Positions 4,087 to 61,020 of a stretch of DNA of 64,000 nucleotides are shown here, piece after piece. Within the stretch, counting starts at the first letter, position 1; each line of letters opens with the position of its first letter. The notes below the pieces were generated by a model. That model was given only the letters and a program-made list of their open reading frames with translations, ran no database searches and had not been told where the DNA came from. Position numbers and translations under genes: made by a program. Source of the DNA: Microvirga ossetica (lineage in GTDB: Bacteria > Pseudomonadota > Alphaproteobacteria > Rhizobiales > Beijerinckiaceae); NCBI RefSeq assembly GCF_002741015.1, contig NZ_CP016618.1, forward strand, positions 372,001-436,000, given 5' to 3'.

Positions 4087-4571
4087 TTACTTCGCTGGCA
4101 CAGCGGCCTTCATGACCCGGTCTGCTCCGATGTTCTCTGGATCGACAATTCCAAGTAACTCGGAAAGTCCGCTGCGGGCGCGGTTGACCCGGCTTTTGAT
4201 TGTGCCGATCGCCACGCCGCAGATCTGCGCCGCCTCCTCATAGCTGATCCCGCCCGCGACCAGCAGCACGGCCTCACGCTGTTCAACGGGGATCTGCAGG
4301 AGGGCTGTCCCAAGATCCTTCAGGTTTATGTACGCGTCTTGAGTTGGAGCAGCCGCGAGCTTTGCGGCGTGCTGTCCGTCAGGATCTTCTACCTCGCGCC
4401 GCCGCTTGCGGTACCCGGTGTGAAGGAGTCGAGGTGGCTCAACCCCCGCACGATGGCCTCCTGGACCAGATCGTCGGCCCGATCCAAGTCACCTGTCAAC
4501 GATATCGCAAACGCGCGCAGGTGTGGGATAGCTTCGAGGATGTCTGCCTTCACATCAATCGATCCAGTCAT
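4087..4571 (-). pseudogene. ecfG: EcfG-type general stress sigma factor, inactivated by internal deletion
   Basis: The N-terminal part (from ATG 4571, overlapping the nepR stop as ATGA) encodes region 2 (PHLRAFAISLTGDLDRADDLVQEAIVRGL) up to TPGT. At about 4411-4416 the frame is lost. The other frame resumes with YRKRRREVEDPDG and continues through region 4 (ISYEEAAQICGVAIGTIKSRVNRAR). Family members have about 17 residues here (the LEAWLFTILRN segment), so roughly 55 nt seem missing, consistent with slippage between two short TACC sequences. The product would lose part of region 2 and all of region 4. The gene is read as dead unless the deletion is an assembly artefact. Confidence 0.75.
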
Positions 4572-4705
4572 GAGCTCTCGTCCGACCATGACTTGTCCAA
4601 TTGCTTGAGCAGGGCGAGGAGGTGATCGGGGACTGGCTCGTCTTTGAGGTCGTCGTACATGACCCGCAGCCGCTCGCCGATTTCGTCCTGAATTGCCCGG
4701 CTCAT
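4568..4705 (-). CDS. nepR: NepR anti-sigma factor of the general stress response
   Basis: A 45-residue protein from ATG 4705. It matches NepR: an IGERLRVMYDD first helix followed by the EPVPDHLLALLKQLD second helix. NepR sequesters EcfG until phosphorylated PhyR binds NepR. Its stop overlaps the ecfG start (ATGA), the classic operon arrangement. phyR, usually adjacent, is absent; upstream lies the repeat at 4878-5135. With its cognate ecfG broken, this NepR would have to act on another EcfG, for example the fusion at 47175-47885 or one outside the window. The RBS is weak (GGTGG). Confidence 0.8.
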   Translation of the reverse strand: MSRAIQDEIGERLRVMYDDLKDEPVPDHLLALLKQLDKSWSDESS

Positions 4706-45600: not shown

Positions 45601-46863
45601 ATGCCAGCAACCAGCAGCACCGTCAAAGCCAATTCCCGATCCGGAGCGGGTACCCGGATCCGCTCAAGCAAGGTCCTGCCGCCGGACATCCAGCGGGTTC
45701 TCTGGGCGCGGTCCTTGCGGGCCTTCGGCGACGGCTACGTCGCGATCCTGCTTCCGCTCCATCTCTCACGTCTTGGCTACGATGCCTTCGGTGTCGGGAT
45801 CATCTCGACCGCGACCTTGCTGGGCTCCGCCCTGCTGACGCTCGCCGTCGGGCTGGTCGCCTACCGGATCCCGAGGCGTCGTGCCTTGCTCGCCGCGGGT
45901 CTCCTGATGGCGACGACCGGACTGGGCTTTGCCGGGATCGAGGGCTTCTGGCCGCTCCTGCTGATCGCGTTTGTCGGCACGCTGAACCCGTCCGGCGGCG
46001 ACGTGAGCCTCTTCCTGCCTCTCGAGCATACGGTGATTGCCCATGTCGTCGCCGACGAGGAGCGCACGGCGGTGTTCGCCCGCTACAGCTTTGTCGGCGC
46101 CTTCTTCGGCGCTCTCGGGGCGCTCTCGGTCGGCACGGTCGATTGGTTCGCCCCGGTCATTCCGCCGCCCGCAATGACGACGGTTCTCTTCGGACTGTAC
46201 GGCGGCATCGGGCTGCTCACCTGTTTGCTTTACCGCAACCTCTCCCCCAAGGCCGAGGCCGGGACGGACAGCCCACCGGCACCGCTCGGACCATCGCGCG
46301 GGATCGTCTATCGGCTCGCGGCCCTGTTCTCGGTCGATGCCTTCGGCGGGGGCCTCGTCATCAACTCTTTGCTGACGATCTGGCTCAGCGAGCGGTTCGG
46401 CATCGGCGTCGGCACCATCGGGGCGATCTTCTTCGCGACCAGTTTGTGCTCGGCCGTGTCGTACTTCGCGGCGGTGCCGTTGGCCAAACGGTTCGGACTG
46501 ATCAACACGATGGTGTTCACACATCTGCCGTCGAGCCTCTTCCTGATCCTGACGGCCTTTGCCCCGACGATCTGGATCGCGTTCGGGCTGCTGATCCTCC
46601 GCAGCCTGCTGTCCCAGATGGACGTGCCGACCCGGTCCTCCTACGTCATGGCGGTGGTCCGGCCGGAGGAACGCCCTGCCGCTGCGAGCGTGACGGCGGT
46701 GCCCCGGAGCCTGGCCTCGGCGGTCGCGCCGCTGCTGTCCGGCTGGCTGCTGACGGTGACGCCGTTCGGCTGGCCGCTCGTCCTCGCCGGCACCCTGAAG
46801 GCGATGTATGATCTGGCGCTGCTCCGGCAGTTCTCGGCCATCAAGCCGTCGGAGGAGCGCTGA
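45601..46863 (+). CDS. MFS transporter
   Basis: A 420-residue protein from ATG 45601 (GAAGGGGACG upstream). About twelve membrane helices. The N-terminal half has RSLRAFGDGYVAILLPLHLS and a motif A-like loop (AYRIPRRRALLAAGLLM). The C-terminal half includes LAKRFGLINTMVFTHLPSSL and DVPTRSSYVMAVVRPEERPA. The DVPTRSSYV motif is frequent in uncharacterised MFS members of soil bacteria. Substrate unknown; an exporter is likely. Confidence 0.82.
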   Translation: MPATSSTVKANSRSGAGTRIRSSKVLPPDIQRVLWARSLRAFGDGYVAILLPLHLSRLGYDAFGVGIISTATLLGSALLTLAVGLVAYRIPRRRALLAAGLLMATTGLGFAGIEGFWPLLLIAFVGTLNPSGGDVSLFLPLEHTVIAHVVADEERTAVFARYSFVGAFFGALGALSVGTVDWFAPVIPPPAMTTVLFGLYGGIGLLTCLLYRNLSPKAEAGTDSPPAPLGPSRGIVYRLAALFSVDAFGGGLVINSLLTIWLSERFGIGVGTIGAIFFATSLCSAVSYFAAVPLAKRFGLINTMVFTHLPSSLFLILTAFAPTIWIAFGLLILRSLLSQMDVPTRSSYVMAVVRPEERPAAASVTAVPRSLASAVAPLLSGWLLTVTPFGWPLVLAGTLKAMYDLALLRQFSAIKPSEER

Positions 46864-47035
46864 TGCGGTCGGCGGCCACTGGCCCGCCGGTGGCCGCTTC
46901 AGTGACCTCAAACCCCGCATTTTCCAATCCCGCCACAGCCATCTCGCGGACGAACGTATCATTCTCTACGACTAAGACCTTCGTGGCGTCCGCACTTGCC
47001 TGGTTCCCGCGCCTATGGCGGCCTGTCGCTCTCAT
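46841..47035 (-). pseudogene. Response regulator receiver domain, N-terminal fragment
   Basis: The minus frame includes KVLVVENDTFVREMAVAGLE and NAGFEVTEAATG, the first strand-helix-strand of a receiver domain with the acidic pair. It stops being receiver-like before the phospho-acceptor Asp and ends inside the MFS 3' end. It lies just downstream of the NepR-EcfG-like gene, so it may be the relic of a partner regulator. Confidence 0.6.
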
Positions 47036-47174
47036 CGCCCGGGGCTCTCATCGCCTGGGATGCGTTCAGTTCCACGGCAGCCGTCCGAGAAATCCCCTAC
47101 CGCAGAACTGAGGTTCACCGACCGAGGGCGCTCGGACCGGAATGCATTTCCGCATCCTGATATCCAGAGGTCCT

Positions 47175-47885
47175 TTAGGCCGGCGCGCCGTGCGCTCCGG
47201 CGATGCCATCCTCGTGGTCGAGCCCCATCAACTCGGCCAGGCGCGTCCTTGTCCGGTTGACCCGGCTCTTGATCGTGCCAACCTTCGTTGCCAGAGCCTC
47301 GGCGGCTTCCTCGTACGACAGTCCGTCCGCACTCACGAGCCGCAGGGCCTCGCGCTGCTCCCAGGGCAGCTTGGCAATCGCCGCGTGCATGTCCTGCACC
47401 GTGAGCCGGTCCTCCTGGTCCGGGATCGTGATCATGCCGGCCGCGTGGATCCCGTCCGCATCCTCGATCTCACGCTGCTTCGTGCGCCGGGCGGAGAAGA
47501 ACAGGTTGCGCAGGATGGTCATGAGCCAGGCCTGAAGATTCGTGCCGGCCTCGAACGTCTCCTGCTTGCTGATGGCCTTGAGCACCGTCTCCTGCACGAG
47601 ATCCTCAGCCTGGTGGATGTCCCGGGTGAGCGAGATCGCGTAGGCCCGCAGCGACTTCAGGCCGGCCATGAACTCGTTGACAAAGGCCTGGTCCACCGGC
47701 TCCGTGTGCGCTCGGATGACCTGCGCCACGCGATTGAGCAGCCGGGCCAGGCTCCGGGGCATCTTCTCCGCGTCTGGGTTGCCGTAGACGGCACGCAGCT
47801 CGCGCCCGAGATGGGTCTGGATCGCATCGGTGAGGGACGAGTTGTCGGCGGGATGGGAGCGTTCGATCGCGATGCACGGTGTCAT
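47175..47885 (-). CDS. EcfG-type sigma factor with N-terminal NepR-like segment
   Basis: A 236-residue protein from ATG 47885 (weak RBS). Residues 20-55 (IQTHLGRELRAVYGNPDAEK, MPRSLARLLNRV) align without gaps to NepR at 4568-4705: 11 of 33 identical, including the I-Q, G, L-R, Y, E, P and L-L positions of the two NepR helices. Residues 66-135 are sigma region 2 (LRAYAISLTRDIHQAEDLVQ, LQAWLMTILRNLFFSARR). Residues 160-215 are region 4 (YEEAAEALATKVGTIKSRVN). Canonical EcfG proteins start at region 2, so this looks like a sigma factor carrying its own anti-sigma module. Confidence 0.72.
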   Translation of the reverse strand: MTPCIAIERSHPADNSSLTDAIQTHLGRELRAVYGNPDAEKMPRSLARLLNRVAQVIRAHTEPVDQAFVNEFMAGLKSLRAYAISLTRDIHQAEDLVQETVLKAISKQETFEAGTNLQAWLMTILRNLFFSARRTKQREIEDADGIHAAGMITIPDQEDRLTVQDMHAAIAKLPWEQREALRLVSADGLSYEEAAEALATKVGTIKSRVNRTRTRLAELMGLDHEDGIAGAHGAPA

Positions 47886-47935
47886 CGCTCATCAGACGTA
47901 ACAGGCCGGCCTGCTTTCAACCGCGCGGGCGGATC

Positions 47936-47961
47936 GGAAACCAGCATCCCCGTCCGGCGTT
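47936..47961 (+). promoter_or_regulatory. EcfG-like promoter, GGAAA-N17-CGTT
   Basis: One mismatch from consensus in the -35 (GGAAA). It precedes the DUF6766 ATG at 47998 by 36 nt. Confidence 0.5.
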
Positions 47962-47997
47962 GTCCAACCGTAGCGGTTCGAGTGCGAGGTCAAATGT

Positions 47998-48660
47998 ATG
48001 CGTCGTTTCCTCCATGACAACGGACTGTCGGTTGTACTCTTCTCCCTGTTCCTGGTCTCGCTCATTGGCCAAGCCCTGACCGGGTGGAAAGCCCATGCCG
48101 AGGACCTCCGGATCCACGACATGCCGGCAATTGGCCTGCTTTCCTATCTGACCAGCGGCCACTTCATCTCGGCGGTGTTCGAGAACTGGGAGAGCGAGTT
48201 CCTCCAGATGGCCGCCTACGTGGTCTTGACGATCTTCCTGTTCCAGAAGGGCGCCTCGGAATCTAAGAAACCGGACGAAAGCAACCCTGAGGATGAATCG
48301 CCATACGCCCATCGAAGCGATCCGGATGCACCGGGGCCTGTCCACCGTGGCGGCCTGCTGCTGAAGCTCTACTCGCACTCCCTCAGCATTGCACTGGTCA
48401 CGCTCTTTCTCGTCTCCTTCTGGCTGCATCTGGCGGGGAGCACGCGTCGAATGAACGAGGAGGCGCGTGAGCATCGCCAGCCGCCACAAACCATGACCGA
48501 CACGCTCGTCGACCCGGAGTTCTGGTACGAGAGCTTCCAGAACTGGCAGAGCGAGTTCCTGTCGATCGGGGTGCTGCTGGTGCTCGGCATCTACCTGCGC
48601 CAACGCGGGTCGTCTGAGTCCAAGCCCGTCGCCGCGCCGCATCACGCGACCGGGCATTGA
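47998..48660 (+). CDS. DUF6766 membrane protein
   Basis: A 220-residue protein from ATG 47998. Two similar halves: residues 1-85 and 120-205 each have a membrane helix (LSVVLFSLFLVSLIGQALTG; SIALVTLFLVSFWLHLAGS), a soluble part with a ...FENWESEFLQM/FQNWQSEFLSI motif, and a second helix (AAYVVLTIFLFQKGASES; GVLLVLGIYLRQRGSSES). This internal duplication is typical of the family. Function unknown. The upstream EcfG-like promoter suggests stress expression. Confidence 0.8.
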   Translation: MRRFLHDNGLSVVLFSLFLVSLIGQALTGWKAHAEDLRIHDMPAIGLLSYLTSGHFISAVFENWESEFLQMAAYVVLTIFLFQKGASESKKPDESNPEDESPYAHRSDPDAPGPVHRGGLLLKLYSHSLSIALVTLFLVSFWLHLAGSTRRMNEEAREHRQPPQTMTDTLVDPEFWYESFQNWQSEFLSIGVLLVLGIYLRQRGSSESKPVAAPHHATGH

Positions 48661-49445: not shown

Positions 49446-49470
49446 AACGGCACGGCATCACCGAAGTTCC
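49446..49470 (-). promoter_or_regulatory. EcfG promoter of yciE copy 1, GGAAC-N16-CGTT
   Basis: On the minus strand, GGAAC (49470-49466), 16 nt, CGTT (49449-49446), 54 nt upstream of the ATG. Identical in copy 2. Confidence 0.72.
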
Positions 49471-60995: not shown

Positions 60996-61020
60996 AACGG
61001 CACGGCATCACCGAAGTTCC
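60996..61020 (-). promoter_or_regulatory. EcfG promoter of yciE copy 2, GGAAC-N16-CGTT
   Basis: Identical in sequence and position to the copy-1 promoter at 49446-49470. Confidence 0.72.

Follow-up and report, generated by a model that had tools for sequence, protein, structure and literature searches.

What does a sigma factor do with a copy of its own anti-sigma factor attached to its N-terminus? The question is raised by a gene of Microvirga ossetica in a stretch of 64,000 nucleotides, here called the window, which sits within a 712-kb contig, one of the 6 that make up a 9.6-Mb genome. Phosphorylated PhyR is known to mimic EcfG and to bind NepR, and promoters of EcfG/ECF15 sigma factors are of the GGAAC-N16-17-CGTT kind. 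An initial annotation described the gene as an EcfG sigma factor with a NepR-like segment at its N-terminus and proposed that the fusion would provide built-in inhibition, possibly opened by PhyR or by stand-alone receivers nearby. The features considered are collected in Table 1.

Table 1. Features of the window, with the basis on which each was assigned
Feature	Position	Strand	Basis
Fused NepR-EcfG sigma factor gene (P0002)	47175..47885	-	Open reading frame and translation, Pfam, NCBIfam ECF models
NepR-like segment, residues 17-62	47700..47837	-	hhalign against stand-alone NepRs, dN/dS, AlphaFold2 models, invariant columns
Sigma region 2, residues about 66-140	47466..47690	-	Pfam PF04542 and PF22029, PDB 5uxx_A profile match
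Sigma region 4, residues about 161-222	47220..47405	-	Pfam PF08281 and PF04545
Single-domain receiver gene, truncated to a remnant, directly behind the fused gene	46841..47035	-	47 bits to the M. terrae receiver
Stand-alone NepR, 45 amino acids, comparison sequence	4568..4705	-	50.4 bits to PF18557

The gene and its protein

The open reading frame starts with ATG on the minus strand and is translated into a protein of 236 amino acids, P0002. Pfam models of sigma-70 region 2 (residues 76-138) and region 4 (residues 165-216), together with PhyR_sigma2, match above their cut-offs, no Pfam match lies ahead of residue 75, and the sigma part (residues ~66-222) bears regions 2 and 4 of the type that defines EcfG/ECF15. 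Indeed, its best solved relative in a profile search is the NepR-bound EcfG 5uxx_A (E 1.1e-62). The top NCBIfam models are likewise ECF models, among the 25 best of which only that of the superfamily, TIGR02937, scores above its own cut-off, and residues 1-65 alone have no NCBIfam match. As first claimed, the NepR-like segment directly precedes sigma region 2 (by Pfam and alignment), and the two share one reading frame, the arrangement that characterizes the Methylobacteriaceae type; P0002 is almost certainly an EcfG sigma factor of this type with NepR fused to its N-terminus. Its named relatives belong to Microvirga at eight of eight loci and, among plasmids, to Microvirga terrae (81.4%).

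Homology of the extension to NepR

The ungapped alignment with the stand-alone NepR of the window, originally counted as 11 identities in 33 positions, holds, a recount giving 12 in 36, and in 20,000 shuffles of residues 1-65 its BLOSUM62 score of 53 was reached once. With hhalign, residues 12-66 and their relatives matched an alignment of 18 stand-alone NepRs at a probability of 96.7% over 42 ungapped columns (E 3.4e-10, a single-template E-value), compared with 0.3-0.6% for four control segments of P0002 against the same profile. The query alignment comprised 118 rows of the P0002 family, namely 116 of the 120 listed relatives (7463 were reported) and two paralogues from the same genome, with P0037, P0051, P0063 and P0074 left out; L26, G27, L30, P43, L46 and R58 are invariant in these rows. 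The profile of the 18 stand-alone NepRs gives at least 9.3 bits to 32 of 33 fused proteins (14.5 to P0002); the thirty-third scores 1.1 bits, and none of 15 unfused or outgroup proteins exceeds 3.1 bits. On sequence comparison, the segment is clearly homologous to NepR, and an EcfG with a NepR-like N-terminus is thus confirmed. Chance similarity was considered and rejected, by the hhalign match against its controls and by the shuffles.

The Pfam search that had been proposed as a check turned out differently, in that the NepR model PF18557 matched neither P0002 nor its residues 1-65, and a six-frame search of the genome with this model returned 29 places at E <= 10, P0002 not among them. Four fused paralogues, including a broken one, do appear there through their N-termini, at 24.2, 17.4, 17.1 and 15.1 bits, all under the cut-off of 25.7 bits. 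More widely, PF18557 matches 45 of the 118 relatives of the Microvirga type at E <= 1, with 4.7e-5 as the best value, and in a broader alignment (119 EcfGs and 6 stand-alone NepRs) it matches 75 of the 125 members at E <= 0.01; a precomputed PF18557 domain is carried by 28 of the 120 listed relatives of the Methylobacterium extorquens protein, two of which are named NepR family anti-sigma factor. Against solved structures, the extension profile matches the NepR chains 5uxx_B (E 0.0066), 4qic_B (0.0093) and 2lfw_B (0.94); the match to 5uxx_B is weak by itself, since unrelated helical chains have similar E-values in the same search, 6uhi_A heading the list at 0.0059.

A known architecture

A NepR-like extension was described by Francez-Charlot et al. 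(2016; PMC4814048) on the EcfGs of M. extorquens, and that paper presents it as restricted to Methylobacteriaceae, as possibly an ancient fusion and as of unknown function at that time, crediting an earlier paper (its reference 4) for it. Having been described in 2016, the architecture is not unusual for the family, and P0002 is a further example of a Methylobacteriaceae EcfG of this already known kind. The earlier paper may be one in PNAS from 2009. Added here are the five intact fused copies of this genome, the distribution in the genus, the tree and the stop-codon route discussed below. Other papers found, in a search mostly outside subscription journals, do not take up the extension in their titles or abstract openings, nor do the available passages of two reviews of ECF sigma factors mention it (PMC8999054; PMC8103513).

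P0002 resembles EcfG1-EcfG6 of Methylobacterium (Methylorubrum) extorquens AM1, whose NepR-like extension has about 55 residues (PMC4814048), and the AM1 megaplasmid member aligns to its residues 18-223 with 46.1% identity. The Microvirga type, including P0002, differs from the Methylobacterium type in having, within the N-terminal segment, a YGDP stretch after the LR motif, and this genome retains an ecfG at the phyR locus, whereas AM1 has none there (PMC4814048). Regulator and sigma factor also share one chain in IutY, ECF36 and ECF41, as PMC8999054 describes them; the IutY and ECF36 fusions carry membrane parts, C-terminal in IutY, whereas the partner in P0002 is a small, soluble, N-terminal NepR.

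Distribution and origin of the fusion

The proposed survey of homologues bore out the fused architecture, both in Microvirga and in the Methylobacterium type. The genus was represented by 48 genomes, counting that of the window. At least 42 of them have, among the matches listed for a profile of the fused N-terminus, one at E 2e-8 or better that runs to the profile end within an open frame no shorter than 230 codons. The other six show only weaker matches among those listed (best E 1e-5 to 2.4e-4), ending at profile position 42-43 like stand-alone NepRs. Absences in the genus, family and order searches are soft and refer to the matches listed; in the family and order searches, scoring covered no more than 26 or 17 candidates for each genome.

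The Microvirga-type profile, at a strict 1e-9, matches 11 of 248 genomes of the family; because it misses most Methylobacterium-type fusions, a second profile of NepR plus sigma region 2 was used on a family sample of 298 genomes. Counting only genomes for which a match is listed, the window's genus (g1) has stop-free spanning matches in 18 of 24, genus g9 in 24 of 24, and g18, g36 and g35 in one genome each. Genus g9 represents the Methylobacterium type, its locus L103 (genome G295) closely resembling the AM1 protein. On reading, the g18 and g36 matches proved NepR-like and the g35 match did not; L092 (G081), the one stop-free spanning match that reading showed not to be NepR-like, was dropped.

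Among the matches listed for an order sample of 297 genomes, only G590 has a stop-free spanning match outside the family, which may be contamination (85% complete, 330 contigs, on a 6.5-kb contig). At least 22 of the 297, again among matches listed, hold matches of NepR plus sigma factor that span from profile position 17 or earlier and are interrupted by stop codons in frame, a single one in 21 genomes and two in G505. Sixteen loci were read, eight of them from these 22 genomes and eight others; ten are stop-broken, five are stop-free fusions and one is L092. In nine of the ten, nepR, a single stop and an ATG 0 to 6 codons further on stand in one frame, the tenth having two stops, and in L102 stop and start read TGA-ATG. 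The arrangement nepR-stop-ecfG in one frame thus exists in nature, so that the loss of one stop codon would yield the fused architecture. The fusion likely arose when an in-frame nepR-ecfG operon, probably a duplicate, lost the stop codon that ends nepR, and the operons still split by a stop codon offer a concrete, testable origin as well as natural unfused controls.

A tree built from 48 sigma parts places 11 of the 12 unfused EcfGs in one group (94/97) and the twelfth, L078 from a Methylobacterium plasmid, among the fused forms. A single clade of the 33 fused forms is not rejected (p-AU 0.358, or 0.498 with L078 added), and the tree is compatible with a single origin, which P0002 and the M. 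extorquens fusions may share.

Several loci deserve separate mention. L078 seems, by eye, to bear a degenerate NepR-like start. L090 (G119, genus g36) has a stop-free NepR-EcfG frame and is possibly a separate fusion; G082, the other sampled genome of this genus with a match (L097), has nepR-TAG-ecfG in one frame. The in-frame nepR-stop-ecfG loci L093-L097 and L099-L102, like the 22 stop-broken genomes of the order sample, are candidates for occasional stop readthrough into a fused protein, besides being candidates for fusion through mutation. A match with a long alignment was also seen on a Rhizobium plasmid (H40).

Fused and unfused copies in the genome

Intact fused EcfGs number five in the genome (P0002, C1:5454k, C1:5395k, C2:1167k and C4:611k), beside three broken ones (C2:1150k, C2:488k and C3:662k) and unfused EcfGs, one of which stands with nepR beside phyR in an ordinary locus. 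With this phyR / nepR-ecfG locus preserved at another place, the fused forms are additional copies.

A six-frame search finds 13 NepR matches above the PF18557 cut-off in this genome, so that NepR-like modules are plentiful. This abundance, together with the two M. extorquens NepR homologues that co-precipitated with PhyR and were not seen to interact with any EcfG (PMC4814048), would suit an improbable reading drawn by analogy, in which the extension binds PhyR in trans and so either titrates PhyR or brings the sigma factor to it; the place of the extension directly before sigma region 2 instead favours contact in cis.

For M. extorquens, four NepR proteins (NepR and three homologues) are named in PMC4814048. 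At 4129-4705 (minus strand) of the window, the stand-alone nepR is followed by an ecfG split over two frames, likely a pseudogene, and a similar pair with an intact ecfG lies on C1 (L028). The genome also encodes near-identical EcfGs of 235 amino acids at L030 1653-2360 (-), L031 1343-2050 (-) and L032 1204-1911 (+), whose N-terminal extension is basic and not NepR-like (about 1 bit or less for L030 with the NepR profile).

Selection on the NepR-like segment

With P0002 as reference, Nei-Gojobori counts (by a script that takes no account of a long antisense open frame at 47142-48017) give residues 17-62 a dN/dS of 0.12 with the paralogue C1:5454k and of 0.13 with M. terrae, lower than in sigma region 2 (0.27 and 0.39) and region 4 (0.24 and 0.26) of the same pairs; residues 1-16 reach 0.43 and 0.98. 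The NepR segment has 0.24 between C1:5454k and M. terrae (region 2 0.29, region 4 0.19), 0.17 between P0002 and C1:5395k (0.35, 0.19) and 0.25 between P0002 and C2:1167k (0.17, 0.34), and in five pairs of the common Microvirga form it has 0.01-0.04 (sigma domains 0.01-0.06). In seven of the ten pairs its value is no higher than that of either sigma domain, and in three it lies between them. The NepR-like segment is under purifying selection, about as constrained as the sigma domains, which says that the extension does something.

These values bear directly on the very improbable notion that the extension is a functionless left-over of gene fusion. The broken copies in this genome, and the six genomes of the genus lacking the fused form among the matches listed, would agree with it; the columns invariant in all 118 aligned rows speak against it, and it was rejected on the dN/dS of the NepR segment.

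Predicted structure

Two AlphaFold2 models, from alignments of 129 and 125 rows, place helices at residues 20-34 and 44-60 (44-61 in the first), with mean pLDDT per ten-residue block over residues 11-60 of 50-74 and 60-80, respectively. Their pTM values are low (0.38 and 0.45), so that the docking of the extension is unreadable from them. In the second model, the sigma domains lie 6.9 A from the polymerase-bound 9m9e_F over 139 residues, 11.4 A from the polymerase-bound 6kop_F over 153 residues and 20.9 A from the NepR-bound 5uxx_C over 148 residues, a comparison that bears on the sigma domains and barely on the extension, as the VIA-align rows cover mainly residues 55-224. With low confidence, the sigma domains are thus modelled nearer the polymerase-bound than the NepR-bound arrangement. 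In the Bartonella quintana EcfG (RpoE)-NepR complex (PDB 5UXX), chain A resembles the sigma part and chain B the extension profile; there two chains are present and here one, with a predicted sigma arrangement that differs by 20.9 A from that of the complex.

Structure prediction had been expected to reveal NepR-like helices wrapped on regions 2 and 4. The two helices were predicted and the wrapping was not, at low pTM, and at this low confidence the models neither support wrapping in cis nor speak firmly against it. The fusion was to be given up if a Pfam NepR match was absent and residues 1-65 were predicted as disordered or unrelated helices; the Pfam match is indeed absent, yet two helices are predicted and NepR is matched at the profile level.

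A possible brake in cis

Built-in inhibition in P0002 is plausible but unproven: the homology, position, predicted helices and constraint of the extension are supported, and the inhibited arrangement does not appear in the low-confidence models. In the best-supported picture, at a little below even chances, the extension acts as a weak NepR in cis that takes up the NepR site of its sigma factor and forms a leaky brake, released by PhyR or RNA polymerase. Its helices would make a weak, reversible contact with the face where the sigma domains of the same chain bind NepR, would exclude the stand-alone NepR and would damp the sigma factor without shutting it off fully, until phosphorylated PhyR, or RNA polymerase itself, displaced them. 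Should the extension indeed gate in cis, it would be an anti-sigma factor turned into a domain of the very protein that it targets.

In favour of this leaky brake stand the homology, the constraint, the status of the fused forms as extra copies and the in-frame nepR-stop-ecfG loci. According to PMC4814048, moreover, only EcfG1 without its extension bound NepR in vitro, which supports an extension occupying the NepR site, and the in vivo activity published for EcfG1 and EcfG2 implies that a brake, if any, is leaky. Against it stand the models, which lack the NepR-bound arrangement, their low pTM, the modest profile score of P0002 and its missing Pfam match. The same source adds that NepR pull-downs in vivo recovered both isoforms of EcfG1, each of which complements a sextuple ecfG mutant, so that full-length EcfG1 is functional in vivo, and that EcfG2 is apparently constitutively active (PMC4814048).

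Some of these results could be read, with rather less likelihood, as a shield: the extension would merely keep the stand-alone NepR off, leaving the sigma factor insensitive to NepR and otherwise controlled. The two-hybrid interactions with NepR seen for truncated EcfG1 and, weakly, truncated EcfG5 alone, the apparent constitutive activity of EcfG2 (both from PMC4814048) and the low-confidence modelled arrangement of the sigma domains would fit. In vivo, however, NepR and PhyR do control EcfG1 despite its extension, and its pull-down with NepR in both isoforms also argues otherwise (PMC4814048).

Neighbouring genes and promoter-like sites

Nearby stand-alone receivers had been suggested as openers of the fusion. 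The window's copy is a truncated remnant without a Pfam family match, retaining only the first part of the gene, which is intact behind the M. terrae relative, where it is annotated as a response regulator, and behind C1:5454k. A partner switch in one protein, in which the NepR in cis would be opened directly by phosphorylated PhyR or by the single-domain receiver encoded right behind near relatives and a separate NepR would be needless, has a distinctly small probability. A single-domain receiver also lies beside an ecfG fragment on C4, and receiver genes outside the window are found at L070 8858-9226, L041 572-1003 and L038 555-950.

Other nearby genes match MFS, DUF6766, DUF892, BrkB, DDE transposase, two Hsp20 and trypsin/PDZ families in Pfam. 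A search of the window found no GGAAC-N16-18-CGTT site directly before the fusion gene, and the M. extorquens ecfG genes likewise lack one in that position, as published (PMC4814048). The window holds six such promoter-like sites against 1.18 expected, one of which ends 54 bases before the DUF892 gene. An EcfG-type promoter-like sequence of 25 bases occurs twice in identical form, at 49446-49470 (-) and 60996-61020 (-), each copy standing 54 bases before an open reading frame of 164 codons, the first of which is the DUF892 gene.
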